The notes under the pieces are model-generated. The model did not search any database and was not told the origin of the DNA. It worked only from the letters and a program-made list of their open reading frames with translations. 64,000 nt of DNA, taken from NCBI GenBank assembly GCA_003971905.1, contig RSEE01000002.1, positions 992,001 through 1,056,000 of the forward strand, written 5' to 3'. Numbering within the stretch: the first letter of the stretch is position 1; each line of letters begins with the position of its first letter. Both the position numbers and the translations under genes were made by a program. Of the stretch, positions 37 through 63,051 are shown in pieces. The DNA is from Moniliella sp. 'wahieum' (Eukaryota; Basidiomycota; Moniliellomycetes; Moniliellales; Moniliellaceae).

Positions 37-138
37 GATCGCAGATCTGTCAAGCTTAATTAGATCAATTTCGATCGACCGTGGTATGTATTTGCAGTGC
101 CTAGTGGGGGGCGCCTGAGGCCTGAGAAGCATTCCACC

Positions 139-545
139 GTTCAACGTTCAACGTTCAACGTTCATCGATCGTTCATCGATCATCGTACGTTCATCCACCC
201 ATCTTCTGGTGTCCTCATGCATCATGTCCTCCTGCATCATGCATGCCATGCCATCATGGGGCAGAGGGGCTAGCCTGGAGGCTAGTGGCATGCTGCAAGT
301 CTCACTGACCGGTGACCGGTGACGTATGACCAACTGATCGATGATGCAATGATGCATGATCGATGATCGATGATCGATGACGCGTGACGCATGGCGCATG
401 GCGCTCGATGACGTGTGACGTATGACGCGTGACGGGTCATATAGTTATACGAATGTGTCATCATGTGCCACGTGCCACGCGCCACGTGATTATTGGGCCT
501 GGACCCACGTGATGTGTGACATGTGACGTGTGACGTGTGATGCTT
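139..545. repeat. Compound heptad cluster with several palindromes
   Basis: A run of 7-bp-period blocks: AACGTT+C three times, then ATCGAT+C in the same register (143-170); ACCGGT+G (about 306-322); ATCGAT+G three times (358-382), running into G-spaced ACGCGT/ACGCAT/GCGCAT blocks; and GTGTGAC-type heptads up to about 545. The period stays 7 where the hexamer drifts. The palindrome form is clear in the first three blocks and degenerate in the later ones. Confidence 0.85.
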
Positions 546-1456
546 GTGATGCTTGTGGGGAAAGCCAGAGGAGATCGACGAGAGCAACGTGCATGGGACA
601 CTCCCGTGGAACCTGTGCACCAGGCAATCAATCAATACCTGGCAATTCCCAGTCAAGAGACTCAGCCCAGAGCCCATTCTGGCTGAGCCGGGTGCAACGG
701 TCAGTTCGCTGGCGCTCAGCTCATACGCTGATGCCGTTGGCGGACTACAGCCTATTACAGCTGCTATAGCATGTGCTACATGCAGCAGGACAGCCCCCAG
801 CAAGCCCAGATCCATAGCCCGACAGCCTGATGAACATAGGACAGAGAAACTGCACCCCTTTTTCCTGCTAGAGCGCATATGAGCTCTCGGGTTTGTACCG
901 GGTACCGATTATCGATTCCTAGCTTTACCGGTTTCACCGGTTACCAATGATTAATGAAAGCGGAAACAAGCTAGGTTCTTCTGTCTCTGTTAGTTGAATC
1001 GATAACGTTGTTTGATACAACCTTTCCAGCTTCTGATAATCGATAATCGAGATAATCGACGGTCAGCGAGTTCAGACTTCAATATAAGCTTCAAGCTTCA
1101 GGCCAGGGGCCTGAGGTACTATATACTCAGTAATAGTAGTCATTAAGTCATTAGTCACTACTAGCTTCACGGACGTGTATTGAGCAACTGATTACTATTG
1201 CTGATAGTGCTGATGAGTTCTGGGGGTTTCCTGGGGTACTGAGATCTGAAAGATCTGAGAATCAAGCTTCAAGGCCGGCCCATTCCCTCATCGATCTCAG
1301 ATCTCATGGAGTATCAGTATATCAGGGTCCCAGGGGCATGCGGATTTGCAGCGGACTGTTGAACACATTGACGTTGAGCGCTGAGCACGTACGTTGAGCC
1401 CCCGATTTGGCCCTTTTACTTTTGTTGTGGGCTACAGAACCATGCCACTGTATCGG

Positions 1457-1508
1457 TATCAAGCTATCAAGCTTCAAGCCTTCAAGCTTCAAGCTTCAAG
1501 CTTCAAGA
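1457..1508. repeat. AAGCTTC heptad array
   Basis: About six imperfect copies of the AAGCTTC heptad, with one 8-bp unit (AAGCCTTC) near the middle. Confidence 0.9.
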
Positions 1509-3911
1509 CACGGCATGTGTGCTACGAGAGTGCCGCAGCCACAGCACAGCCTCTGCCGTCAGCGCGTCAGCGCATCAGTGCGTCTGGCCCCCAGACCCTC
1601 AGACCCAACCCTAACGTCTAAACCTCAGGCCCTCCTCACCTTTGACTTCTCGCCCAAGACTCTCCAGACCCTTCCCCCCTGGTCGGCCGCTAAAGCTTCT
1701 GGCTGGGCTCCCAAAGATCGCCTTATCCCCTAGTAGACTGATAGTCGATCTTTTGCCGATAGGCACCACAACAATATAACTAAGATCGTTAAGATCATCG
1801 ACCATCCTCCCATATCTCTATTTTGGGACCGTGTCATTGACAGAGCCTAAGGCTGGGACATAGAAACAGTATTTAAAAGCAGTTCAAAACTACGGCTGTT
1901 CAGTTCAAAAGAAACACTCAGACGTTCAGGTGTATCAATGCGTTAATATATGCCACTCAGCATTCGATTAGCAGAGGTAAACACCTTGCATTTTTATCGT
2001 TACGGTGTATAGGTTTGCTGTCCGCGGGGTGATAGTTTCTGGGAAAGAATGACACCAATGGGTATCAAACACCTTACTGTTTACCTATTGCATATTGGCC
2101 AGGGACGCGCTATCGAGATCCGGGATCGGAGCAGTTGCAGGACCACAAGCATCACTCTATGACAGTCTCAAAAAGTCGTCAACATTCCCTACTGCTTCAT
2201 CGGCCCTATAGGGCCTGTGAAATCTCCTGTTGCACGTTTTGGGCACTGTCTGGGGTGTACGGGTATGCAAATGAGGGCATTTGTTCGGGAGACCAGGCAG
2301 CTAGAGTTGGTATACTTAGCTGGATGATGTATACACGAGAGTATACGGAAGCCACCGAGAATATTTTTGGCCTCTCTCGTGGGGACGGATAGGTGCATAT
2401 GATCCGTATAAAAGGGGAGAGGGAACCAGGCTTTCGGCTGATGCGCCACAGTATTTGGACGCTATACCGGCTGTTAGACATTTCGTTGGTTATGTGTGAA
2501 CCACACACAGACCAAGCAAACCTATGCATTTTGCATTGGTGGAGGAAGACAAATGCCCATGCGTGCACCAACAGAGCTGTCCCGCAACAATTATCAGTCA
2601 CAAGTTAGTTACGACGCTCTAGATATACAGCTTCCTGCCTCTCTTTTACCGTTTTACTGTAACGCGTAAGCTAGGCTCCGGCCTGGGAAACACCTAGTCT
2701 CTATAAAGCACATAGAACGATCACAGTGTGTACGTGGTGCGTTGGATATGAGATGGCCTGATCAAAGCTAAGTCCGCCTGCTCTTCACATGCCCAGTAGA
2801 GCGCACTGAGAAGTCCACCAAGTTTGATGATATGGCCCGTAAAAACCATGTACCGTGGCCCGAGTGGCCATGCCCGTGCGACAATTACAATCAGCGAGTG
2901 AGAATCTATCAACAAGGTGAGCGATAGGTACTAAAGGGAAGAGAAAAGGAAAAGGAGAAGAGGGCAGTACAAGCAACAGTGGGCAGAGTGTATACAGTTT
3001 CTGGTCTGCCCGCGGCAACTCTAGGGTCTGTAACCCTTTTTTCACAATTACTACTAATCAGCCGCCAGAACGCCGCCACAGGTACGACGTAGCAGCATTA
3101 CATGCATTACCAGGTATTCTTTAGGGTGCATCATCATGATGGGTACAGCTTTTCTAATTGCTTGCTTCCTGACCCTCTTGGTCCCTGCTCAACAACTCAG
3201 CGCCTCATCAGTGGCCGCGAAACGCTTCCCTCCCGCCTCCCACAAGGGTTTACGATCAAGAAACCATAGACTGCGAGAAGTATTGAGAATTTGTAGGAAT
3301 TTTGGGAATTGAATATTGAGATCTGAGTACTCAACTGAAGGAGCGCACATGAGACCTGACCCTGAGGTCTGACGAGGCTTGATGCTTTGAGATCTGTTGA
3401 GATCTGAGATCCTGAGACTGAGAGGCGAATAGTCTTTTAAGCGCCTAAAAGCGCTTTTGAGCTTCATGCAGACAGCGAGTCAGAAGTAACGTCTCAGAGA
3501 CATTGCGGTGTCGCACAGGCCATAATTCGCGGACTTTCTGAGGTTTTATATACGCCAGGAACATTTTGGAACCTGAGGCTCAGGCCTGAGCATACTGAAG
3601 CTTGAAGACTGTTACGCGTTACGTGAAGCTTGAAGCTTGAAAGTGGGACAGCCCCTCCATATCAATGAGGCGCAGTTGTGAAGCTTAAAAGTTGTGTACA
3701 AAAGGGGCCTGTAAACACGGCCTACAAGTACAACAAGCTAGCCTAAGGTAAGGCCATATGAACGTTCGCCGAAGCCTGTAAGGGAACCCCTGGAAAAGTC
3801 TACATAGAGCAATCCAACGGTGGTGGTGGTGGTCTGCTTGTAATGGCATGATGCCCCTGAACTTGAAGATGAGGCAGGAGGCCGGCAGGAGGCCGCGGCA
3901 GGTTTCCAAAT

Positions 3912-3939: not shown

Positions 3940-4560
3940 CATCATGCCTATACCAGGCAAAGCCATACTGTTGGGGGAGAGACAGGGGTTCGAAGAAACC
4001 AATGATACACACGTGTAGGCGTCGGAGGTCAAATTTTAAAGAGGGTGTACATGGTACAAGGGAGGAAATGTAATAAGACCTAAGGAAGCCTAAGGCCTAA
4101 AGGGCTTGGTAAGGATCGATGATCGGTGATCGCAAGGGCCGTCACGCGTCACGCGTCGCCCGTCACGTGCAGACATGAGATCTAAGAATCTGAGGTCTGA
4201 GAGCGCGGAGATATGTGAGATCGATCGGAAACCATACAGTACGTGTGTAACGTAATAATTGTCTGGAGTAATAACATCAACTGCTTGCATGATGCATCAT
4301 GCATCAATGATCTGTAGGATTTGCGTACAGTAAGAAGACGACGTTACGCGCTAACCGGCTTGACCATGGCGGGCGTGGCGGGGCATGGACCGATTCGCAT
4401 TGAGCGCGTTGAGCGCTGAGCTGAGCACATTGACCTATTTTTCCGTTGTGGCAAAAGATGTGGCTGTGGCAGGTGTTACTAGAGGGGGGAGCATATGGCG
4501 GATGTAAAGGGCATGTAACTTGCAAACGAGTAGTGACATATGTAAACGCCTGATAACGGG

Positions 4561-4677: not shown

Positions 4678-7367
4678 CATGTCACCTCAATTCCTATCGC
4701 AATGGGCTGCAAAGGAGAGAGACATATACCCAGAGTTATCTCACTGCCTTTCACTCTCTCCTCACTGCCCGCTGCTCTCTCTACTTCCACGCAGTATACT
4801 CATCGCCCAGCCTGAGCCTGAACATCTGAGAACGCTCGCCACTGCAGTAATCGATCCCTATCGATTTCTGAGACCTCTCGCACTTGATTACCTACTGTGG
4901 TATCGGGATGGCGAAAGATGGAACAAAAGATGGCCTGTGGTGGAAGTTTGAGCCCTCCGGACACTGAATATTCTTAATCGTTCTGAGAGAGCGCTCAAAA
5001 AACTTGCATTAAACACATAGTAGTAGCTTGCATCACGCCAAGCCGTGAAGAATGAAGAAAAGTTAGAGTTAGATGATTGATGCGACCTCTCGAAGAGGCT
5101 CGCGAGGGCCTGAAGCTGTTAAGACACTGTGGCCTGGCCTGTTTTTGGGGCTATGGATGCGATCGAAGGGATACAAGAGGGCTTAGATTGCTGCTGTCGA
5201 CTGCCGGCACCTGATGAGGCCGAGGAGGCGAGGAGACCTGAGGCCTCAGCCTGAGGCCCTAGGCCAGAGTTGGAAGAACAGAACAGCAGTGGGGATGATC
5301 GATCGATCATCGATGGTCGATGAAAAAACAAGATGATGGAAGGGAGACTAAGAAATACAGAGGATTTACTGAGTAATACTCATCCCATCAGTCACACCCA
5401 TCTCTGAGTGCTCAGAGAGTGCTCAGACCGAGCATTATACGGCTGTGACTAATACACTTGTATGAATTGAGTATACTTGTACCGAATACTGACATTCGTA
5501 GCCAAAGCAGTATTCTATGCAAGAAAATGACTCGGACGGAGTGCGACTCTCCGATGCATTCGGTTTGAGACATGTAGTGGCGCTTGAGGCCTGATGAGGG
5601 TGGATGGTGCGAACTGTAGTGCTAGAACCAATAAATGGGCGGGGCGAAGCAGGAAGGGAGGAGCGGGGAAAGTAGTTGTTGCGTGAAGTATCAGAGCGAA
5701 GTGGCGAAAAGAGATGTTAAAGGAATGGGCCACGAGATTAACGCATTTATCTGCACGGAGTTCCGACAGATCCGAGGTAAATAGAACTCCCAAGGCACGA
5801 CGGACGATGACTTTGACATTCTCGTGAGCTTGCCCCTTTGAGTGGGAGGATGCAGCAGCCCGCTAATGAGGTCAACGGCTAATACTCTCTTTATTAGTCG
5901 TTACCACTCCTTTTTAGACGCACGCGCGTCGACGAACGCATTTACGACGCGGCCCAAGCGCTGTCAGGGGGGGTGGAGAAGAGCCGGAAGGAAGTGCCCA
6001 AGAAGCTCGACGATGCCGACGGTCGCAATGTCGTCGAGCAAGCAACGCGCTCAATCACACCTGGCTCTCCTCAATCCCATGATCTGTGTGCCTTCGGCTC
6101 ACAAACAAGAAGTTCAGGTTGGTCTCCAGCTCCGCACCTGTTGTGCCGTTCCACGCACAGCATGGGCCAGTGTGTCGTGTCATGTCCTCGCTAAGCACAT
6201 CATGGCTTTAGCCTCACCCAGTCCAATTTTGGTGCATTTCACGAGGTTCCCATTCTTCACTGCGGCGATCCATCCCCCACGACCACATCCACGAGCCGAC
6301 TAAGGGGGGGGGGTAATGATGGGGCGAGGTGTGGAAGGATATGACGATGCGTATTATATTGACTACCGAGTGTTGAGACCTGAAGCCTTCGGAGGATAAA
6401 GAATGGAGATGGACCTCACTTTGTGGAGATCGGGAACGCGGGAGGCGCTGTCTGCGTACGGAAGGGTGGTACACGAGAAGAGCACGCGACGCCATTTGAA
6501 CGCCACGAGAAAACTGATCCAGCGACGGGGGTACAGGGCAACCCTCTTCTCATTCGCACGCCCCTCGGGTGCGAGTCAAAGTCGTTTGGGAGGGGAAGGG
6601 GAACGGACGGAGGAGGTAGCGGCGCTGTTGGCCCGCTGGCCAAATCTCGCCTCTTCGGGACTTGGGGAAAAGTATACGAGCTCCGCTGGCCCGCCTGCCA
6701 ACGTTCGCTCGCACGAATACAAGGTCCTGGGGACTGCTAAGAGGATCGGCGCTCTCCGCTGGCCCGCCAGCCAGTTTTCACCGTCACAAAAAATGGTTCT
6801 TGCGTGCGAACCCGGGTACTATACTAGACACTTGTCCCATTCAGATTATTCCTAGAGTCGAAGCATATGGAAGGAGGAGGGGGGAGAGAAGCCGAGAAGC
6901 GAGAGGGACAATAAGGGATTGGAGGTGGTTGGTGCAAGGCGACTTGATCAAGGCGACTTAATCTCACCCCGTTGCAATCCTGATCTGATGGCGGTTTCTC
7001 TGGTTCCTAAAGGGTTGACGCCAACAAGCAACGCACACCAGAGGTAACAGGTCAACAGTTTAGGCCCAGCATTTCTTTGTCTCAGCCTAAGCTCTCTGTC
7101 AATGATATCATTAGAGATCGAGATGTGGTACCTCGAACACAGTCCCAATGAAGGACTCCTGAAGCTTCTCTCAAGCGTTTCATCAAAGCGAATTGAGATG
7201 GCTTGCCTTAATTGTGCCCAACCGACGATGTAAACCATTGTTGGGGCGAGGGTTAAATACATGTCCGGTACACCTGATAACTATCATCATTTGCAAAGCG
7301 TAAGATATTAGGGATAGCGAAATGCTACACCTACCGAGCTCGCTCAATATGAGCCGGCATGTGCTGC

Positions 7368-8865: not shown

Positions 8866-11206
8866 GCATGGGCAGGGGGGTGCTGGGAGTGACCCACTGT
8901 CCTTCGCCTGAATGCGCGCGCCGCTGTAGGTCCCCCCCCAAATGGCTCAGGGTCGCCATCGCCATGCAATTCAACGTTTGGCACCGAGCGCACGTCATCG
9001 CCATGCACAGGAACGTGACTTTGTCCCGCTCCAACCAAGACGCTTCTAGATCTTGTCGAGATAGGGTGATGATGTGGAAGGAGCTGTTCGATGGGTCTGG
9101 CGGAGGACCGACGTGCTCCATGGTACCACAGAGAGTAAGGACCAGCAGTGTATGCAGGTCATGACGCGTAGACTAGTCCCACGCGTCGCAAAGCCCGGGG
9201 GTTTGGAGTGTTCGGGCTGGTACGGAGGTGCCCAACACACGTAGAGATTGTGGAGATGATGCTGCAGGTGCGGGGCATGCATCGCTCAATGTGAAGTGGC
9301 ACGGGTGAGAGGGAAACAGAAGCAAACTGAACATAAACAGCTATCTCTTCGCAGTGACTCAGGAGCCCCCGCAGGCCCCTGCAGGTGGTTTGTTGGTTGC
9401 CCTGGGGGTAATCGGTAAGTCTTGGCATTGGATACGATGGACTGGATCGTCGGTCAGCGCAAAGATGAGCCTGTACGTTGGCACCATAAACGTTAAACGT
9501 AAACCATTTTGCCTTGTTTCTCAGGAAAAGCCCTTGGAGGCTATCGTCCTCAGGCGTCGATATTCCATGCGGCAGATCCCAGTGAAGTCAATCAAGGCAT
9601 TCATCTATCAGCGTACTCAATAGTCAAGCTGTCAAGAGGTACAGAGGACTAGGTAGTGCAACAGAGTGTAGCGGTGAGTAACTGAGTAGTGTACTGTATG
9701 AACTAAAAACTGAGCCCCGATAGTGGGGGAGGGGGTCCAACTCTTGACGCAGTTCGAAATAGTTGTTATAACCAGCTGAGACGCGGGGGATTCCCTCTCC
9801 CAGCCTTCTGGACGGGAACGTACGCTTCGCCTGTCCCAAAACGCTACGGGTATCGTCCCATAGCATGTGGCACAGTCCCTGTGTGCCCTGCATTCTCTGA
9901 TGTGTGCCTCACTGACCCTGGGCCTAGTACGGCCTCCTATAGATGCACCTCTATGATCCCGACCCAACTCTTCTGACTCCAATCCATCACCTCCTCTCCT
10001 CATCCTTCTGCCCGTCCAGTCTGTTGACCAGGGTCCTATGGGCCAGCCACCCCCGCGGCACTCCTGACCATCTTACTCATCCGGGCACCACACCAGTATC
10101 CCTATCCCCTGGCCTAGTGCCGCTCTCCTTTCTTCTCCTTCTTCTCCTTCTTTTTCTGATCCTCAGTCTGGGTTCAACCCAGCTCCTGTCTTCTCTCTGC
10201 CATTGCACAACTGCACTTAGGACGTCGCTGGGTCACCAGGATCATTACAGTCCCCTAGGCCAACAGTCTCTTCTCCACACGAGGTTGATGGGGCTGCTCG
10301 TCCACGGAACCTCTGCCGTGCCCGTTCTCAAAGCCGTTCGCATGCGGTCGTGGGGGGCTGTTGGCCCTGAAGCTCCCTCTGCTCCCCGAACCCTCGGCTA
10401 TACAAGGCCCCACCCTTCTCATAGCCTTCCGTACCTCTCCTCAGAACTACATCCTCCTCCTCTTTCAGCATGTTGCCTTGTTTCCTTGTTTTTAGTCCTT
10501 TTTCTTGTTACTAGCCATAGTTCGTGGTTTTCCCTCACGGTCCACTAGGGTCTCCCCCTACTCTGCTCGTCAATTGATCAACCCAGTGCAAGCAACTCCT
10601 CCGCTTAATTGCTCCTCCATCTCCCGTCTTCAGCTTTCCGTTCTCAGTTCACCCAGGTCGCGAGGGACTCACAGGTGTCACCCCGAAACCCAGCTCAGTT
10701 CAGCCGCGTGTGACCCTGCCTACAGCCACGCCGCCCCCATTCCCAGTCCAGCTCCAACAGTCCACAGCGCAACATATCTACTATTGCCTCCTCCCCGTCC
10801 CTGAGCGCTGAGCGCGAAGGCTTCAGACACGTTACTGCCGCCCAAGTCGGTGCTACGCAGCCTCACTGTGGCTTGTACCCGCCTCTGCTATACGCCGGGA
10901 GGCCTCTCCACGGGCGGTCGAAAAAAATAATTTCAACTCTTAGGACACCCCATTAATATTTTGCTCTCAAAAATTCCTGCACGGCACAAAAACGCTCCTG
11001 GATATAGGACAGCGAATTATCTCCAGCGTAACATATTGCGCTCTCCTGACCCCCTAACATTGTTTGCTCTCCTACACCTCAGGGAACCATAAACATCTCC
11101 TGAGGAGCACAAACTGAAAAGCTCTCCTGAACCAGGGGATCAAACACGCTCTCCCGGGGCTACAGATACAAAAAGGCTCAAAAGATGATATAGATGAAAA
11201 CATAAT
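8866..11206. other. Gene-free stretch
   Basis: No supported gene. From about 9940 to 10800 the plus strand is strongly pyrimidine-rich (CTT/CCT runs near 10120-10160), giving long but low-complexity Ser/Pro/Leu open frames. From 10920 to 11190 it is AT-richer, with repeated phrases such as GCTCTCCTG at irregular spacing. Confidence 0.55.
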
Positions 11207-11897
11207 TCATTGGCACGAAAGGCAGCCGCCATAGCCATGGCCTCGGTCGCCGTTACAATGGTAAATGGAACCACGCGCACACAGCATGATCGACACCTGC
11301 AGGTCCAACTGGTAGGTCAACACATGACAGCCTTCTTGCCAAATAGAAGATCCCAAGGGTTGCCAAGCGTATCAACCATGAAAGTTGGCCCAAAACCATG
11401 GTGGCGGCGACGATTCACGACACACAACCCAAAGACTTCACGTACACAAGACATTGGGGTTAGGGGACCATGCAGTGAGGCTGACGCACTGACGTCCCTT
11501 GCGCTCGGCCAGCGACACAGAAGAGAAGAGTAAATGTGTAGCCTTGGGCGTGAGGGCGAGAGGAACCTTCCAATTGGAAAGATCATAGAGGGACATAGCA
11601 CGGGGAGGGCAACGTACCGTGCACTTGGATCTGCCGCGCGAGCATAGAGTGAGGACAAAGCATGGGGAGGGCAACGTACCGTGCACTTGGACCTGCCGCG
11701 AGATGAAAGAGTGAGGACAAAGCATGGGGAGGGCAACGTACCGTACACTTGGACCTGCCGCGAGATGAAAGAGTGAGGACATAACATGGGGAGGGCAACA
11801 TACCTTGCACTTGATGTAGGTAGATGGGAGGGAAGCAAGTAATGGTCAGTACAAGCAATTTCGACGTACCGAATACTGCAGGCAGGCGGGAGTGCAT
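11207..11897 (-). CDS. Small multi-exon gene with tandem 13-nt micro-exons, function unknown
   Basis: Read on the minus strand, a TATA box (11962-11969) precedes an ATG at 11897. Exon 1 is 28 nt (MHSRLPAVF + 1 nt) and ends at a GTACGT donor. The first intron (about 11810-11869) has a TACTGAC branch-like site. Three identical-length candidate exons of 13 nt follow (11742-11754, 11680-11692, 11618-11630), each preceded by GGCAG and followed by GTACGT, and separated by 49-nt introns. A further intron (11567-11617) leads to exon 5 (11446-11566), then a 137-nt intron to a last exon (11207-11308) that can end CNGDRGHGYGGCLSCQ-stop. Because 13 is not a multiple of 3, the number of micro-exons retained sets the frame of exons 5 and 6. 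The gene could instead be read unspliced, as all three frames stay open across the array. No family recognised; a small Cys-containing product is possible. Confidence 0.45.
11567..11822. repeat. 62-bp tandem repeat, four copies
   Basis: The phrase GGGGAGGGCAAC begins copies at 11602, 11664, 11726 and 11788, exactly 62 bp apart. Inner copies differ by only a few bases; the outer edges decay. On the minus strand each full unit is 49 nt starting GTACGTTGCC and ending CGCGGCAG, plus 13 nt (GTCCAAGTGCACG or one-base variants). Confidence 0.95.
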
Positions 11898-11961
11898 CGG
11901 TTTGTTGTCAACGCGGTGAAGTTGGAAGGGAGCGGGAATGGGGCATGCCGTTGGCGCATGC

Positions 11962-11969
11962 CTTTTATA
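11962..11969 (-). promoter_or_regulatory. TATA box of the micro-exon gene
   Basis: The minus strand reads TATAAAAG about 65 bp upstream of the ATG at 11897. The flanks carry two GGCATGC palindromes. Few other starts in the window have so clear a TATA element. Confidence 0.5.
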
Positions 11970-12187
11970 GCTCCCAAATTGTTGGCACCGCCGCGCGCAT
12001 ACACTGCCCCCGTGCATCTCACAGATTCTCTGCGCTCTCAACAGAAACCCAAGCCCGGGCCAGTGTATGGCGATTGGTAATCAAGGTTCCCTGAAATCAA
12101 GCCTGGGGCCAGTGTGGCCTTGATGAGTCATCGCATTAGTTGTTACGCGATTGTGTATTATACCAGCTGACGCGCGTGGCACGTGAC

Positions 12188-12913
12188 AGGAGGACGAAAG
12201 TAATATACCAAGGCTGGTCCACTTTCTATACCGCGACTTGGTCGAACTTTACGCAACTGAAGCGCCGTTCATTATTGGTAAGGTCCTGCGCATAGGGCGT
12301 AACAGTAACAACAGTGGAGTTGCATGGGTTGGATTTCGCCCATTTAAAATCACAGGGGTCAAGCACCGCTCCGGGTGCCGTATCGTTGAAGAGGTGGAAG
12401 ATGCTCCTGAAGAGTTTGCCTTACTTGATGTGAGTGGACACATCAACACTGTGTTGAGCTGTTTGAACTAACTATTGATCTCGTTATCAGAGACTTGGAA
12501 CGGAGGCCCCCTTCCAACACGCCTGCACTAAGCGCTGTCTCATTGACCCTCAAGGAAAGAGGGTAGTTGTGCATAATCACGAGATCGATCCCGAGACTGG
12601 CGACTTTGAGGAGATTGAGTACTACACTGAGGAAGCATATCACGAGGGGCAAGGCCGAAGGCCGGTACCCAATGAGTATGCCATACGCAGTCCTCCTCAC
12701 ACCAAACCCTATATGGACCTGCGCATCAGTCGCTCACTCACACACATCACGCCCGAGCGTTTGAGTAGGAACGTCGCCGCAAACATCGACAAAACGAACG
12801 CGATGGCGCACATGAACAAGAGGAATCAGACCAAGGCTCGGCTAGTAGCCAATGCCTTGGCGCCCGACACCACGAAGCCCCGGAGTCTGACTAGGACAGA
12901 GGCCCATGCATAA
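12188..12913 (+). CDS. Unknown two-exon protein, 5' end unresolved
   Basis: Two exons join in frame across a 61-nt intron (12430-12490, GTGAGT...CAG). The first readable exon begins after an acceptor-like CAG at 12187 (EDESNIPRLVHFLYRDLVEL) and has no ATG in its frame, so an upstream exon is needed. One candidate is an open frame ending with a GTGTAT donor at about 12060, which would overlap the promoter and exon 1 of the opposite-strand gene. The second exon includes HNHEIDPETGDFEEIEYY and a basic C-terminal tail ending SLTRTEAHA. Mixed acidic and basic composition and clean splicing favour a real gene. I do not recognise a domain. Confidence 0.5.
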
Positions 12914-14713
12914 ATGTATGTCCTCTCCCACAAATGACCCGAGCAGCCTTGAAGGCTTACGCATTCCGACAGCCTATACGTCTGATAAGGGTGCCGCTGG
13001 TCCAAATGAGCGTTGTAGGGTGTGTGGATAGGACCCTGGGCGAGAGAACAGTGCTCTTGTTCGCCCTTGGAATCTGGGCGAGCACGGTTGTGGGTTCCTC
13101 TCGGCGGCAGCGGGCTGGGCAAGCACATGGTGGGCAGGCGGTAAAGCAGAGAGAGGTCGGAGGCGTGGGATGAGGGCGTGTGCCAGGTCAAGCTGGCGTG
13201 CAGGACGGCAAGGGTGTAGCGCGGAGCGATGCCGCCGGTCTTATTCAGCGCGGGTGAGGGAGGCAGGTGGCGAGGCGGCGAGAGTGGCGTCGAGCATGGC
13301 TGTGTGGGGATGCTGACGATGGGATGGGTGGGCTGGGAATGGGGGTGGGAGAGCCAGCTGTGCGAGCCAAGGGGGGCAACTGGTGGGTAGGCGTGCGCTA
13401 TGTTTCAAGAATTGGCTTAAAATCTCAAGAAATCTCAACGTTGGGCCCGGCTGGCCCCAGTTGCGCGCCGAGACCAAAACAGCTCCTTGGCGCAGGACGC
13501 GGAATTCGCTCCTCTGTAATATTTTTCAAGCCTTGGCCGCCAGCCAGAGAGAGAATGGCCGCCAGAAGCTGATAAAATGAAATTGTGTTCTGCATTAAGA
13601 GTTTAAAATTTCCCAGTCGACCGCCCGTGTCCTTGTCTCTCTAGCCCCACTAGGACCCCCATCAATCATTCGCCAAAGCACGTAACTACCTTGAGTCGGC
13701 CCTTTAGGTTCTACAAGGGATTGTACCCCTAAACCCCCGGCCGGGCCCCCTGGCGGCGCACACCCGTGCGTGATACTGCCAGTGGTCTCAGCCATACCGC
13801 GTAACGCGTAACGGACAACCGCAGTTACAGGTGGCCAGTTTATTAGGCCACCGTTTAGAAGGGTATAGCATTTCTTTTTGTCCCAGACTTACTGCTGCAT
13901 GACATATATGCCTACGGCATAATTGTGTGAGACGGGCAACCCAGGATAGAAAAAGGAAGAGGAAAAGATACTCAACGGAGATTCGAACCTGCGGTCTTCC
14001 GTATTACCCAAGGATGGGCTTAACCGCAACACTGTTTAGTCTGGATAGGAGAGTTTCCAAAAAGGATTGACCTCTATAACGGATTTTGTGATGCCAAAAA
14101 ACCCCTTCATCAGTCCCCACACTACCAAAGTATGTAACCTGATCGACTAGATCTCAGGGACCTGGAAGGCCTGATCGCCGAGATCTGTCCCCATCATTAG
14201 GAAAATGCCAAAGCCATCGTGAGTAGGAGATACATCGATACAGGGAACCCAAGCCGGCGGGAAGTTCCGGTCACCGGTCGCATCATAGTATTCCATGTGA
14301 CCGGTGTCCTCTGTCTCCTAAGATCAAACGCGCTAATTGAGCGCTGGTGTATAGGTGGGGCCCCACACATTAGAGTGGGCCCATCTCGGAGAAAGCCGGG
14401 CCGGAGTCATGCGTCACGCGTCACGGGTGTCGAGCAGGGGGAACATCACATTTCAGGATCTCCCAAAAGGCTGTAGTGCGGGTGAGATGACATAATTGGG
14501 GTGGCGCCGTATGGGCTGACATGGGAAACCCAGAAACAACATGGAGCTGTCGGATGTGCTGCGATTTAGTAGTTATCCACATACTGTCATCCGGGGGAAT
14601 ATAGCAGGTGCCGCTGGCATCGCGCTCAGCGTTGGAGGCCAGCGAAGAACGATCCGGAATTAACTGTGCATTACTCTTTCATCCACCATCTTCGCGTTCA
14701 CACCTGTTGGCAA
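12914..14713. other. Gene-free stretch
   Basis: G-rich from about 13200 to 13400 on the plus strand, AT-rich after 13570. It holds a short ACGCGT block (13798-13813) and a tRNA-like sequence. No supported gene. Confidence 0.6.
13967..14036 (-). other. tRNA-like sequence, degenerate
   Basis: The minus strand has a B-box-like GGTTCGAATC, an A-box-like GCGGTTAAGC about 40 nt upstream and a TTTT run directly after the 3' end. The acceptor arms do not pair, two of five anticodon-stem pairs fail and the T-stem is broken. It is probably a decayed tRNA or tRNA-derived element; a structured ncRNA cannot be excluded. Confidence 0.3.
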
Positions 14714-18791: not shown

Positions 18792-20357
18792 AATGTTGGT
18801 GTGGTCATGGTAGGGAAGTGAGTAGTGAACGGGGGCGGGCCGAACTGTTTGAGACGAGAGGCATAGGCCCGTAACCCATATTCAGCCCACGGTATTCCTA
18901 CCGAACCAACAAGCATCATCAGCTGATGCCTCACACGCCTCACACCCCCTGTGGAGAGTGGGGCTTGTCTTATCGTGGCGCGCCGTAGCAGGCCGTAGCT
19001 CTCGCTGCGGGCGGTTTCGCTGGCTCAGCGCTCAGCGCTCATCATTCGTCATGCATGACCAGGACCAGAGGCGTTCTGCCGTTACGCGTCACCGGTTACC
19101 TCTCGAACCGCAGCGGGGACTCCCCTACTGCCTCGGCTGAGTAGGCTGTGCGCCCTCCGCCGCTGAGTAGGGCGTTTAAGTTCTCAAGCTGAGTGCAGAG
19201 CCGCTGAACCTCGGACGCTGTCTCGGCCCACCGCCCAAACACCCCAATATATCACCCCGTTCGCGGGGAAAACTTCGCAGCGTGAGAGCAGTCTTCGGCC
19301 ATTCGGGCAAATGACGCAGGTATCGAAGCGTTATCGATTATCAGCCACTAGACACCAGCACAGGACCACTTCCATACCAAGATATAACAATTCGCGCGAA
19401 TGTTGTCGATGAAGACTTGCGCAGGGGCACCTACCCTGGTCTACCAGTGGCCTACCCTGGTCCAACACAGGCAAAATGATCATGCACCTGTGTGTGATGC
19501 ACCATGTGACCATTGTCACGGGCGGGCGCCGCCAGGGGGCCCGCCCTGGGGTTTTTGGGGTACAATCCCTTAGGCGACGGTAGGTCGACTCACGATAGTT
19601 TCGGGCTTAGGCTGGTTGGCGTGTCCGAGCGGAGCTAGGAACGAGGAGAGGCCTTTGGTGGGGCGGCTGCACGTGTGGCAAGGCTGCGTCTGCACCGGTG
19701 GGCCGTAGTAACGTGTCTGAAGCCTCCGGGACTTAGGGACGGGAGGAGGCAGCGGCGGACAAACACTGCCTTAACTGGGACTGGGAATCGCCGCGACCGA
19801 AGGAGGGCTCGCGCGATTGGACTGACGAAGGGCTGGAGGACGAGGTCGGAGATGTCGGACGCTAACAAGAGGAGCTGCCATTAGCTGGAAACGGACAGGA
19901 GTCGGACAGGATAGGCGGGAAAGGGACGAAGGTGGAGACGAGAGATGACGAGAATGGAAGGGGGGGAAAAGATCCCCATCAACCAGGGGTACAGGCAGGA
20001 TCAAAAGGGAAACGGATACAAGAGAGGGTGTAGAAAGGAAGACATGTCAAAAGCGGGGTTGGTCGCCGCAGGCGCGACCGAGAAAGGAAACGGAAACGGG
20101 GACGGGACGGCAGATGCCGCCACGGCACTGGAAGCTTGGTGGCCTTATTTATAGGCCGGCCGACTTGGACTTGGGCGGGGGGCGACTATTGTCGCGCGGA
20201 GCATGGCCCTTCGGCCACGATACTTAATTTAGCCAACCATCATCACACTTGGTTGGCCTGCGGAGCACGCTCTACTGGGCATGTTCGGAGCAGGCGGGCC
20301 TTAGCTTGGGTCGGACCATCTCGTGTCCGCCGCAGCCCGTGACAACCATAGTCGACT

Positions 20358-20850: not shown

Positions 20851-21070
20851 TCCTTGATGCACTTGATGGGTTACGGTTACGCTTAACGTGTTACGCTGCC
20901 ACCCATTCCTACTTGCAGCGACGATGGAGATGTGCAGATTGACTTCATTCGATCATCAACGTCAACGTTCAACATCATCCTATCCGATTCAGGTCGCGCC
21001 AGTGTTTGAGAGTGACTCAGCTGCGAGACCTCGATAGCTGCAACACTGCCGCAACCGTTTTCCGATGTTC

Positions 21071-21107
21071 AACGTTCAACGTTCAACGTTCAGTACTCAG
21101 TACTAGT
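21071..21107. repeat. Heptad array switching AACGTT to AGTACT
   Basis: AACGTTC three times, then AGTACTC and AGTACT, then AGT, all in one 7-bp register. The spacer base C is kept across the switch while four of the six palindrome bases change. Confidence 0.95.
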
Positions 21108-22778: not shown

Positions 22779-25700
22779 CTTGGCAATTACTGGGGTGTGT
22801 AAGCTTAGCGGAAGGAGTTGGCCAACTTGTCCACCCACTGAGTTGCGTCCGGGTGGGTGCGGTCGCACTAGAAACAGTGGGTAGGGTTCGAAGGGCGCAA
22901 TAAATTCAACTCTTGAAGACGCGAAACATTAGGGTTGATGCCATTTTGTGCGAAGGCCATGGCAACCCTCGCATTCACGCGTCACGTGCGTCACGTGCGT
23001 CACCGGTCACCTAGCTCAGCGTACCAACAGCATTAGATCGCGTGATGATGTTTCGGAGGCATGATGTGGTGAGGCAGTAGGATAGATGATGCGTGATGCA
23101 CATGATGGGGACGCGGGACGAAGGAAGTAAGTATCCCAGCCTATCCCAGCTGTGCGAATACGCGAACGTCCTTGGCGCGACTGACTGCAAAACGAAAGGC
23201 AATGCCCTGCTGTGGGATGAGTTCAAATTCAAGCTGGCGAACAGGTAACCAAGGGGGACCAGGTGTAGCGTGCCGAAGGCGCTGAAGCTAGCGAAGATAC
23301 AAACGCCCGGCAACAGGGCAGCTTTAGCGGTGTGAGCACCAAGGCAAAAACGTATCAAGCCGTCGCCTTTCCTGCCTGTTGACTCGCGGCCGGCTGGATG
23401 GAAAGTTGTTGTTCAAGTGGCTCCTCGACGAGGATCCCCAGGCGCTCAAAGCCATCCAGTTTCTCATTTTTCTCGCGAGCAAGTCTCCACGGCGGTCTTT
23501 CCATGAACGTCGACGAGACGTCACCGTCGCTCCGTGGTCTCCTCGCCCGCCCCACCTCCTTCCAGCATGCCAACATACGCGACCGTCTATATATGACTGC
23601 TAATTTCTCAGGATAACGCAGGACCTCAGTGCTCCCGTGCTGGGACTTCTCATTGGCGATATGTGGTGTTGCCGCACTCTTTTTCACCTGGGCCTAACCA
23701 CAAAATTGGAGAGCCAGCATGCCAGCGGTAAGCTGCTGTCTTCCATTATATCATGTGCTGTACACATTCAAAGTGCGCGCCTCTTCCGTGGTCTGTGCTC
23801 CGTCCGGTTGGTGCTTAGTGGCTCAATTCAAAAGTCTCTGTAGTTCGGCTCTTCAATGACTACTGAGTTCGGGTTATGTTGACCGTAGCGTCTTTGCGCG
23901 ACGAAAATGCTACGACCTTTTTATTCAGTAAGTCGTCACATCTATTAAGAGGAAATGTCATCCGGTGGGCCACGGCAGGCGTCGGATATGACCTGTCTAT
24001 GTCCCTGGTGGGTGCCTCTATCGCCGCACCCGCCTGATGCCTTTAGAAAGAAGAGTCCCTTTGAGTAATCCCGCTTAATGTCGATCTCTATACTATGCTG
24101 GCTGCTCGCACTAAGAGCTGATAACTCTCGCCTCCCCTCTTTAACGCTCTCCCGAGAGGTCTTCGCTTCTTTCACGGACTCTCACGGATACGGATTCCCA
24201 CCTTGCTCGGCTGCCTGCCTCGAGGCGAGATAAGACCGGCAAACTGCAGCGGCCACGCTGCACGAAGGCACTATTGGTCCTAAACCCTCACGTGCGATGC
24301 TATACAGCTTTCAAGGTCGGCTGCGTGGCGCTGAATCGCTCCATCGGCCTCTTCTATCCCGTCTGAGCTTATTGACATCATGGGCCTGTAGTCTCACCTT
24401 CATCCCAATCCAAAAGATGCACTCTCTCGCTGTCGAGATCAGACTCACTTTTTGATCACGTTTTGTCACCAAGTTGTCTGGCCCCCTTGATTTGTTCTAG
24501 ACCCTGGTTTCCCCCTTTGGATTGCGCCCCCTCTTTCCCTCCATATGAATTAGCTCGCATGTTTCTTCTGCTTCGAGGCATATGCCTCGTTCTCTTTCCA
24601 CTCGATGAATATGATCCTCATCCTTTCCCCCATCTCCATCCCCCGATACTCTCTCCTTTACTGGCATAGAGGGGGGTTACGACGGCTGCACTCACGATCA
24701 TCAGATCGCCCCCTTCCCTCTCTAACGCTCGACGTGGGCTAAAATTGCTCGCTAAATGGATTGCTTTTCATAGAACTCTAAGGCATCTCGAAGGTAGCCT
24801 CTCTTCCGTCGTCGTGTTCGATCTACTACCACATAGAAGAGTATCAAGAGTACTGTACTAACTATTGATGCTTCTTTGGGCCTGACCCCCAAAGGCCCAG
24901 CCTCTCTCTCGGTTACCGTTTTGTCTGCGCGCATGATTTTGCCTTATCTTCGTTTCTGATTCTTTCTTCGGGAGTATAACTTATGATTGTTACTAGCTAC
25001 CATTAGATGTTCAAGCCCCGAACCCCCCGGCAGATCCTGCCTTATGATAAACCTTCCTCTCAACCGTGGCCGCTCTTCGCATGACCGCTGAAGTTTGAAG
25101 CTTTTGAAGCTTGAAGCTTGAAGCTGAAGCTTGAAGCTTGAAGCTTGAAGCTTGAAGCTTGAAGCTCGAAGCGTCCGTACGCTGAGGGGATGCTGTATGA
25201 TAGGTTCGGTTACGCGTTATCATACGGTTGAAACATGATGTATGACAAGGCTCGGACTGAGCAAACATATGGCCCTCGAATTCCCCCGTTTCTGAGCCAT
25301 CCGCGGGTGTATACAGGTATGAACTGGTATGGCACAATCGAACTGACGATCGGATGGAGTACCGAATGAGCTCGGTAAGCGAGCGTTCGTGTTATTTTCA
25401 TCTCTCTGATCTTAGTACCCTGATGCGCTGCATGATCATCGCCGGACCGTACTGCTGCCACTCTCCTTCGGGTTTTCATTTGGCGTCGTATTTGATGGTG
25501 TGGGTTCTGCCACACATTATGGTGACGACTCTTTTCTTTCTTGACATGCTTCGTAGCTGTGCCGGCTGACCGGTCTCTATTCCCCACCTTGCTCTTGTTT
25601 AGACAAGCTTTCTGGTGTGGAGGAGGGGGAGTTGGCGACGTGGAGGTGATATCTTCCCTAACAAATCCTTTGCGGCGCCGACATGCTCATAGCGGTGATA

Positions 25701-61097: not shown

Positions 61098-63051
61098 GTT
61101 GTCGGCTGCTGGGGCGAGGTGGTGGGGGTAGGAAGCGGGATGGGGGGGGGTGCCGGGGCGGGAGGGTGGATGGATGCGCGCGAGAGGCGGCCACGCATTG
61201 GAGGGTTCGGCTTGGCGCGTAGCCTGCCTTGGCCTGCCTGCTGCATGCCAACGACACCGGAGATCCAGGGTCTGCCGGCGCAGGCCGGCGCTCTAGAGGC
61301 CTCGTGCAGCGCTTGCGGCAGACGGGCTGTGTGTTGCTGTGTCGCAGTGTTCTCTTGGCGTTGCGGGGCGGCGGAGCCAAGAGAGTGCACGTGGAGCCAT
61401 CGTACCTCGTGCTGATGCACTGTTGCAGATGCAGGGGGCCGCTGAGCGCTGACTATGACTAGGCGGCCTGGGAGCTGGTGCACCGGCGCCGATCGGCCAC
61501 AGGGGCGCAGGATGCCCGCAAGGGGAGAGGTGCGTGCGCCCCCTCGCAGCACGGGGGCAGGGAGCCGCTTCGCGTTGATCGACATCCCATATGCCACCAG
61601 GGCGAGGTGCTGCTGCGGAACGGAGGCGGACGCGGAGTACGCGAGCAGGGCAGGGCAGCTGAGCACTGTGGGCGGTGCGGGTGGCGGTGGCGGCAAGTGA
61701 TCTGCATGGCGCGTGACTAATAACGTCCTACTGATTAAGCAACGAGTTCAGTACGTTCAGCGTACTGGCAGCTCAAGCACTGGAGCTGAAGCAGGCTGAA
61801 GCACTGCTGCAGCGCTCCTGCCGAGCTGGTGGCTGGCTGCACCGCCCTGCCCCATTCCACCGCTGACCGGTGATCATCCTACCACGCACTAGCCGAGCGT
61901 GGGCGGAGCTGCGCCGGTAGCATGTAGGCAGCACCTCGGGTGACCGGTGACTAGTGACCAGTGACTAGCACTGGTGACTAGCTGGTGACCGTGCCCGGTG
62001 GGACGGCTGGCCATATGCCAAGAGTCAGTCACGTGGCTGCTCGCCACATGCGGCACACGTTACCGTCACACGTCATGAATGCCTAGGGACATGGTGGCTG
62101 GCTACTAGGCTACTGCCGGTAGCTCGGCACGCCTCAGTCTGAGTACCCAATCACTCTACTCAGTATAGGCGCTAGGTTCTCGGTAGATACCGTGCTGAAC
62201 CGATGAACCTCTGAGGTGGAAAGGGTATGTGCACCCAGACGAGGGCAGGAATGTGTTAGCCCTAAGGCCTAAGGCCTTAGACCAAATCCTCCACGTGCAT
62301 GCTTGGCCACATCATGTGAATGTCATCTCTCGTCGCATGTCACACCCATGCGTGCGTGAGATAATATGCACATCACGTGCATCTCACTGCCGCAGGGATG
62401 CAGATAAAAAAGGTCACCTGGAAATGTATGATGGCCACGGCATGCTGGCAGCTTGTCTCGTTCTATGGATACGAACAAGACTGCGCCAACACTTCAAAAG
62501 CTTGGGGACACGACGACGGTCGATGCCGATGAATCAGGACGATCGGAGTCGATCGAGAGGCAATTGCACCAAGCATCAGATCGATGAGAGCATAACGAGA
62601 GAATAGGGAGTTTAAAAGCGGGGGGAACTATGCACCTTCGCTCCTAAGTACCCTAAGTAGAGAGTATAAAATCAACAACCAAGACAGCGGAGCAGGGAGA
62701 AGACAACTGTGCTCCCACGCCGTTGGAAGTGTGTTGGTAAGCTAAGTGTGTGTTGGTAAGCTGTTCGGCGCGAATAGCAAGCACCCTTTCCGTCCCTTTT
62801 GTATAAAGAAAAGCCTCCCTTTGAATGGTTACGCTGGCAACCTCAAGCACAGACTATATGAAATCCGGCCGGTCTCTTGACCCTCCCCCCCCCCCCCCCT
62901 CTCCCGGGTTGTGTATAGTCTCTCCTGTTGGTCATATTGGTTGTACCATGTGGCATGCATATACACAGGGATCACCAATTGCCCGTCACGCGGGCATGCG
63001 TGCTGGGAGCCTTGCCTCTGCGACGCTATTAGTATCGACACCTGCATCGAC
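61098..63051. other. Gene-free, repeat-bearing stretch
   Basis: GC-rich to 61700, then mixed palindromic heptads (61941-61990; AGGCCTA at 62260-62280; CACGTG words). A tract of about 14 C lies at 62883-62899. No supported gene. Confidence 0.6.
61941..61990. repeat. Heptads alternating ACCGGT, ACTAGT and variants
   Basis: In one 7-bp register: ACCGGTG, ACTAGTG, ACCAGTG, ACTAGC, then ACTGGTG, ACTAGC. Several palindromes and near-palindromes share the ACNNGT frame and a G spacer; one unit is 6 bp. Confidence 0.85.

Follow-up and report, generated by a model that had tools for sequence, protein, structure and literature searches.

Palindromic heptanucleotide arrays in a Moniliella genome are probably scars of a recurrent, TNA-anchored templated insertion

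The question raised by this locus is how a genome comes to hold many short tandem arrays whose units differ in sequence and still follow a single palindrome rule. The window, by which we mean the whole 64-kb stretch of Moniliella sp. 'wahieum' DNA analyzed here (C2:992001-1056000, from a 69.5-Mb assembly of 223 contigs), had been described in an earlier note as carrying 7-bp arrays of ANNNNT palindromes between positions 139 and 545, and such arrays are indeed found there, with AACGTT at 139-164, ACCGGT at 306-322 and ATCGAT at 357-380 among them. Sequences of this kind, short palindromes and heptamer repeats, are readily classed as products of slippage or as binding sites. Our best explanation is that a single recurrent mutation left the arrays behind as scars, and that they are neither an element nor a set of binding sites. 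The main sample, 264 kb in all, combines the window with 20 stretches of 10 kb each from contigs C1-C4, spaced at regular intervals and chosen without regard to their content.

Exact period-7 runs of at least 14 bp number 184 in the 264 kb and 114 of these are palindromic at six of the seven positions, 109 of the 114 having the form A....T. Shuffled units lead one to expect only 36.8 palindromic runs, and the rule proposed in the earlier note thus holds up against shuffling in this larger sample. The observed and shuffled values are 93 and 81.7 at period 4, 78 and 76.1 at period 5, and 5 and 7.2 at period 6, and periods 8-13 contribute a single palindromic run altogether, at period 11; no palindrome excess comparable to that at period 7 is seen at any other period from 4 to 13 in the 264 kb, period 3 not being assessable by this comparison. 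Most of the 16 possible ANNNNT hexamers are used, as had been claimed, with 14 of them present as arrays. Genome-wide, TGAAGCTTGAAGCTTGAAGC gives 1198 matches and its reversed control 0, and TGACCGGTGACCGGTGACC gives 250 and its control 2, long arrays being counted repeatedly in both cases; an unrelated heptamer pattern gives 0 matches and its reverse 1. Stretches of a second haplotype that lie on separate contigs (52.6 kb, see below) repeat the result with 66 of 88 runs, and it is therefore not the fault of one contig.

The fraction of palindromic N4 tetramers was tabulated for every pair of flanking trinucleotides seen. The four strongest pairs are TGA..TGA (122 of 216), TCA..TCA (114 of 201), TAA..TAA (19 of 37) and TTA..TTA (16 of 36), that is, 44-57% palindromic as compared with 5.9% overall, and since all four are of the form TNA..TNA the anchor is T-N-A with the same N on both sides. 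The unit of a palindrome plus one spacer base, as first proposed, stands, with the amendment that the spacer is identical on the two sides and belongs to a T-N-A anchor. The central base is mostly G or C, with rates of 18 per 1000 for G and C and 6-8 for A and T when arrays are counted repeatedly. The 7-bp period continues past TNA-pal4-TNA by no bases on the left and two on the right in 29 cases, by two on the left and none on the right in 22, and on neither side in 8; one-base extensions number 10 and 8 and three-base extensions 7 and 10. In the control classes, non-palindromic TNA pairs and palindromes in other trinucleotides, extension simply declines from (0,0). Because an extension of two bases on exactly one side is the commonest, the unit can be written as TNAxy-YX-TNAxy or its complement, where YX is the reverse complement of xy. 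The commonest form is thus 12 bp long, a 5-bp direct repeat flanking a 2-bp inverted copy.

This definition of the unit can be examined from several sides. Where TNAxy-NN-TNAxy occurs (n = 418, arrays counted repeatedly) NN is the reverse complement of xy 322 times and that of TN once, the other 95 fillers matching neither. Per 1000 starting 5-mers, again with arrays counted repeatedly, TNA yields 15.3 such 12-mers, as compared with 0.10-0.96 for the 15 other classes of first and third base, and self-complementary flanks are the lowest of all (ANT 0.10, CNG 0.10, GNC 0.19). In a scan of the general geometry u-v-V-u-v the combination of a three-base u and a two-base v is the sole strong standout, with 389 occurrences against 158 and 161 with wrong fillers; weak excesses are found for u of four and five bases with v of two (57 and 49 against 25-33). 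All xy dinucleotides but TA are present when single and multiple sites are pooled (15 of 16). Outside TNAxy no position carries more than 0.12 bits in 135 oriented single sites, a set that includes second-haplotype stretches and some sites twice and of which 90 fall in the 264 kb, so that the address is about three bases long.

Independent clusters of the unit number 181 in the 264 kb, whereas Markov simulations give a mean of 1.2 and a maximum of 4 in 20 trials. The exact length of a cluster is 12 bp in 109 of the 181, 14 bp in 34, 19 bp in 17, and takes other values in 21; the count per 10-kb stretch ranges from 2 to 20, and the 64-kb window has 69. Isolated TNA-N4-TNA chains are palindromic in 143 cases and non-palindromic in 159, and since about 10 palindromic ones are calculated to arise by chance the excess is some 14-fold. 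Single sites outnumber tandem arrays and are the main form, which displaces the array from the position of basic object that it had been given at the outset; arrays look like repeated single events.

The most direct evidence comes from a second haplotype in the assembly, detected by a DNA search of the organism's own genome. C50:303001-340000 (minus strand) is syntenic to window positions 1-32533, with 80-97% identity per aligned block, and much of the genome is therefore probably represented twice in the 69.5 Mb. Window positions 1-34000, stretch L023 and parts of stretches L016 and L025 were aligned with their counterparts, giving 41,743 aligned positions of which 3.7% are mismatched; the alignments contain 465 one-base indels, from which it follows that some assembly noise is present. 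Indels of 4, 5, 6, 7, 8 and 9 bp number 31, 16, 11, 38, 7 and 9, or 16, 7, 6, 27, 4 and 6 when clean, well-matched flanks are demanded. As a direct test, exactly TNAxy in one haplotype and TNAxyYXTNAxy in the other is found at 22 of the 38 seven-bp indels, for example TTACA and TTACATGTTACA at window position 755, TGAGC and TGAGCGCTGAGC at 1375, TGAAG and TGAAGCTTGAAG at 3596, and TAAGA and TAAGATCTAAGA at 4331 (Table 1). Allowing any u, with a two-base v, raises the number to 24 of 38; two of the 24 are non-TNA (window 1270 and L016:1701) and one, L023:8942, can be read either way. The analogous form at indel lengths of 5, 6 and 8-12 bp fits 3 of 58. The remaining 14 of the 38 seven-bp indels fit no u-v-V-u-v form, some resembling versions with one mismatch (window 20362, L023 7400) and others bearing no resemblance (window 10454, 27232 and 30339).

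Table 1. Period-7 palindromic units, arrays and haplotype differences in the window
Feature	Position in window	Strand	Remark
Polymorphic unit, window GCC TGA GGCC TGA G, other haplotype GCC TGA G	113..126		7-bp indel, de novo class
C-AACGTT array (TCA-ACGT units)	139..164		Exact period-7 run
Single unit TCA-TCGA-TCA-TC	173..184		
G-ACCGGT array	306..322		
Mixed 7-bp chain, TGA constant, tetramers TCGA, TGCA, CGCG, CGTG, CGTA; imperfect units included	335..434		
Shorter form CCTA TTA CAGC; other haplotype TTA CATG TTA CAGC	755..761		7-bp indel, de novo class
Longer form TGAGC GC TGAGC; other haplotype single TGAGC	1375..1386	+	7-bp indel, de novo class
C-AAGCTT array	1480..1507		
Shorter form TTTGACTT; other haplotype TTTGA AA TTTGA CTT	1641..1648		7-bp indel, de novo class
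Longer form TGAAG CT TGAAG; other haplotype single TGAAG	3596..3607	+	7-bp indel, de novo class; flanks 20/20 identical
Shorter form; other haplotype TC TGA GATC TGA GA	4195..4203		7-bp indel, de novo class
Shorter form TAAGAAG; other haplotype TAAGA TC TAAGA	4331..4337		7-bp indel, de novo class
12-bp polymorphism TGAGC / TGAGC GC TGAGC TGAGC (7-bp + 5-bp step)	4410..4426	+	
Mixed array, three ACGT units then GTAC, TCA constant; other haplotype GTTCAATACTCAG	21067..21101		
G-AAGCTT array, longest exact one in window	25125..25164		
Site CCCTGA/TGCG; other haplotype with 36-bp insert of GGCC-TGA-type units, TGA at end	25424..25424		
CCGG unit then CTAG unit, common TGA register	61939..61950		

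A search within 14 bases of the site in the shorter haplotype shows the unit to be absent at 13 of the 24 fitting indels; all 13 of these sites, which we call de novo, have TNA, and two of them (window 3336 and 5593) lie in poor flanks with 12 and 11 of 20 positions matching. In these 13 haplotype differences an inverted copy of adjacent sequence appears together with the extra 7 bp, and TNAxy stands as a direct repeat on both sides of the inverted copy, the flanking duplication expected from the return in a template switch. Since the shorter haplotype at these sites has xy without the palindrome, the palindrome cannot be ascribed to the target and instead arrives with the extra 7 bp, two bases being copied inverted and the neighboring sequence repeated. 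At any single site the difference could instead be a deletion, a filled site losing 7 bp between its 5-bp repeats, and in the sequences examined here there are no third copies of polymorphic sites beyond the two haplotypes. That the process is insertional we infer from the excess of units and from the haplotype pairs rather than from an outgroup, because the units must be made somehow and chance does not make them. Comparison of the haplotypes at 86 aligned clusters shows no difference at 36, substitutions alone at 12 and gaps at 38. A 3.6-kb haplotype-specific element in L023 holds 0 of the 20 clusters of that stretch and two haplotype-specific insertions in the window hold no sites; this absence from haplotype-specific insertions, three in number, fits with accumulation over time.

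The haplotype pairs bear immediately on microsatellite slippage of chance 7-mers, with foldable palindromic arrays being favored. Slippage would account for the observation that arrays differ between haplotypes by whole units, and as the shorter haplotype is scored as already carrying a unit at 11 of the 24 fitting indels it would explain those 11 as well. The 13 de novo indels, however, offer it no unit in the shorter haplotype on which to slip, single chains exceed chance about fourteen-fold (143 as against roughly 10), and a comparable palindrome excess is missing at other periods. As an account of everything seen here slippage is thus very improbable; it is contradicted for the origin of the units and may still act on long arrays. 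The claim, made before any comparison of haplotypes, that arbitrary units copied by slippage could not conserve a palindrome rule is supported by the pairs TNAxy / TNAxyYXTNAxy.

A second possibility is that selection maintains the arrays as binding sites for proteins of one family that recognize TGA half-sites spaced 7 bp apart, another of the causes listed in the earlier note. TGA and TCA do recur at a lag of 7 (216 and 201 pairs), and long ORFs hold fewer clusters than their share of the window: 36 stop-to-stop ORFs of at least 200 aa cover 36.5% of it and contain 12 of its 69 clusters. Avoidance of coding sequence, claimed earlier as a property of the arrays, is on these numbers a rough tendency; 4 of the 12 clusters lie in a single putative coding region, the array-rich ORF at 282-908. 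The idea of binding sites is hard to reconcile with tetramers that vary freely while remaining palindromic, with an xy that is nearly free and with scant preference in the flanks; there is no conserved recognition sequence, T and A alone being fixed and the preference at N weak. Moreover, most sites are single units, and 38 of the 86 aligned clusters have gaps between the haplotypes. We consider selected binding sites highly improbable.

Footprints left by transposon excision, with TNA or 5 bp as the target duplication, would resemble the units in outline. Tc1-type footprints consist of a duplicated target around a remnant of the inverted repeat, and the 5-bp sequence GGTTA, duplicated at a haplotype-specific insertion bounded by TG...CA ends, fits TNAxy by eye when reverse-complemented, a chance fit being expected for about 1 in 8 five-mers. 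Six further haplotype-specific insertions, likewise judged by eye, show duplications of about 2-8 bp of a different form. A footprint should carry a fixed-end remnant, whereas xy takes 15 of its 16 values and mostly matches the neighboring bases, and is therefore not a transposon end. Exact 9-mer inverted pairs within 2.5 kb share the same flanking TNA in only 5 of 4037 cases, and no parent element emerged from the search for TNA-flanked inverted repeats or from the target duplications at haplotype-specific insertions. There is accordingly very little probability that excision footprints are the source.

What remains to be accounted for is an insertion with a fixed geometry, and that it is templated and anchored at TNA is something we hold with high confidence. 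Fold-back synthesis, the first cause offered in the earlier note, is supported by the inverted copy of xy within the extra 7 bp and is the best of the options given there. Taken as a whole, with the route still conditional, a fixed-geometry, TNA-anchored template-switch mutation whose iteration builds the arrays is a probable explanation. At TNAxy 7 bp would be inserted to give TNAxy-YX-TNAxy in the order direct-inverted-direct, with two bases copied inverted, or three if the returning T is a copy of the A. From the fixed sizes of 5, 2 and 3 one may read a displaced flap of 5 nt, the copying of two bases and a loop of three. Strand-displacement synthesis may raise a 5-nt 5' flap, pTNAxy; the growing 3' end, ...TNAxy, would move onto the flap at the junction and copy y and x, a ligase would connect the 3' end so extended with the flap's 5' T, leaving TNA as a three-base loop, and the resulting 7-nt bulge would evade mismatch repair and become fixed. 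The product predicted by this route is exactly the observed insertion, in the right orientation and with the same N. Each product would hold two copies of TNAxy, which are new substrates for an identical unit. Repetition at one or at neighboring TNA would then give uniform arrays, and TNA with other neighbors on a shared register explains mixed arrays such as CTAG-CTAG-CGCG-CGCG (L016:2522) and ACGT-ACGT-ACGT-GTAC (window 21069). Long arrays would probably be lengthened further by plain slippage.

The flap-and-ligation route on its own is put forward tentatively and we would regard it as doubtful. It leaves the demand for T and A, that is, for TNA over GNC, unexplained. At the switch point the T and A of TNA are the only complementary bases; other complementary flanks have the lowest rates. 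Template switches are also expected to vary in length, which is not what is found (24 of 38 fitting at 7 bp, 3 of 58 at other lengths); known fold-back events do vary and a fixed 7 bp is not their prediction. Hairpin strength was tried as a driver and set aside: its relation to rate is weak (Spearman -0.46, p = 0.07), the GC stem, one of the two strongest, rates below average, GC-only stems do not lead, and the predicted mini-hairpins have a positive free energy in every case. Searches of this genome give 9 matches to MutS-type and 12 to XPG-type sequences, paralogues not being told apart, and simple loss of these families is therefore not indicated.

Two other routes to the same product deserve consideration, both of them rather unlikely. 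In the first the work is done by a dedicated enzyme, perhaps a nuclease derived from a transposase or of some other origin, which would make a short staggered break at a two-fold symmetric TNA target, after which one end would hairpin and be opened two bases off-center to leave P-nucleotides, and fill-in would repeat the target. V(D)J joining is known to add P-nucleotides of about two bases, TNA is symmetric with a free central base and almost no other preference is seen, and a fixed geometry is more enzyme-like than free jumps of a polymerase. TNAxy, however, is asymmetric, and the filler comes from xy 322 times and from TN once where a symmetric break should use both sides; in addition, a 3-nt TNA break with P-nucleotides would give TNA-YX-TNAxy, a gain of 5 and not 7 bp.

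In the second of these routes, an out-and-back template switch, the polymerase, having passed TNAxy, would take the opposite strand as template for y, x and A, which gives YXT, and return, one base pair deep, onto the T of TNA. The returning T is the complement of A, so that the product can equally be written N-Axy-YXT-N-Axy, and this form with three copied bases fits 23 of the 38 indels; template switches are documented in rad27 yeast (PMC5677150). A one-base return should, however, serve ANT, GNC and CNG equally well, and their rates are 0.10-0.19 against 15.3 per 1000, nor is the constant copying of two bases explained.

Returning to templated insertion with a fixed geometry, several known systems come close to it. 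In rad27 (FEN1) yeast (PMC5677150), mutant cells undergo fold-back template switches, quasi-palindrome correction and elongation of palindromes with amplification, events that the authors place at Okazaki-fragment borders and that affect 21 loci, with varied lengths, among 455 changes. There as here a new strand copies itself inverted and returns, leaving a palindrome and sometimes an amplified direct stretch; the events described here differ in their fixed 7 bp, their TNA site, the absence of any need for a prior inverted repeat, and their occurrence as scars in a natural genome, 181 in 264 kb. Small inverted triplications, DUP/INV/DUP, are linked in PMC13334657 to loss of FEN1 and to Okazaki termini, and the second template switch is stated there to be unresolved. 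The direct-inverted-direct order is common to both, but the triplications have dimensions of about 148/160/148 bp, a spacer and 6-bp junctions (PMC13334657), unlike the 5/2/5 bp, the lack of a spacer and the fixed anchor seen here. Fold-back templated insertions at yeast double-strand breaks, according to PMC11724301, are likewise very short, inverted and templated, but use microhomologies beside the break and are mostly about 5-34 bp long. According to PMC5427490, MutSalpha/MutLalpha-dependent mismatch repair in S. pombe goes no further than four-base loops, and Msh3, Exo1 and FEN1 are among the factors on which hepta-nucleotide repeats depend; with such a limit on loop size a 7-nt loop could survive. 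The rad27 events, the FEN1-linked triplications and this limit are points in favor of the flap route.

Unless an enzyme turns out to cause it, the recurrent TNA-anchored insertion is most plausibly a kind of template-switch mutation. The haplotype pairs suggest that units arise singly, each through a templated insertion of constant size with an address of three bases, and the dense set of 5-2-5 scars in a natural genome, 181 in 264 kb and by extrapolation tens of thousands, provides data at base resolution for testing how a strand leaves and rejoins its template, which bears on the second switch of DUP/INV/DUP events (PMC13334657). It is possible, though we think it unlikely, that this lineage has a dedicated or altered DNA-processing activity, for instance a TNA-cutting enzyme that has been domesticated or a changed apparatus for flap processing and ligation, and that this activity writes 7-bp palindromes into intergenic DNA and has shaped much of the non-coding sequence. 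Should an enzyme be the cause, it would write non-coding DNA in a manner for which we know of no parallel.

Other 7-bp tandem units exist, among them the heptamer repeats of cyanobacteria. AAGCTTG heptamer arrays are frequent in Pseudomonas and its relatives among the matches listed, and an AAGCTTG array is found in 11 IMG/VR contigs. The Pseudomonas unit has the form TGA-AGCT and resembles the fungal arrays in being a 7-bp tandem unit, with the difference that there is one unit type and that no palindrome rule across units is seen in 120 listed loci. Around these 120 bacterial loci (940 kb) 127 of 133 clusters are AAGCTT, the word searched, and 14 of 15 IMG/VR contigs have a single hexamer type, L166 having one extra TGATG site; all were found by way of one chosen unit and the sample is therefore biased. 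A rule that holds across units is seen in this fungus alone, the comparison being with AAGCTTG-selected bacterial and IMG/VR loci. In the literature searched (titles and abstract openings, largely open-access) no description of a TNA-anchored rule was found.

Several further features were observed. A helicase ORF of the fungus has a relative at 51%, and its best named relatives, at about 30-35%, belong to the Ustilaginomycotina, which agrees with a basidiomycete placed near that group and no closer. Among the matches listed, AAGCTTG arrays are common in the genomes of Pseudomonas, Stutzerimonas and Zobellella (loci L043-L162). In the fungus, window positions 10909-13630 and 19520-20345 are insertions missing from the other haplotype, with terminal inverted repeats of the type CACGGGC...GCCCGTG, and L023:2862-6499 is a 3.6-kb repeat that the other haplotype likewise lacks; its target duplication is near AACCACT, and it has at least 11 near-full copies of 94-96% identity among the matches listed. 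A dispersed repeat of about 150 bp at window 24500-24650 has at least 38 further copies (80-88% identity), and window 6511-6867 appears inverted between the haplotypes, with inverted copies at its flanks. Longer tandem repeats, unrelated to the 7-bp rule, occur at window 11591-11813 (62 bp, 3.6 copies) and 38694-38816 (27 bp, 4.6 copies).
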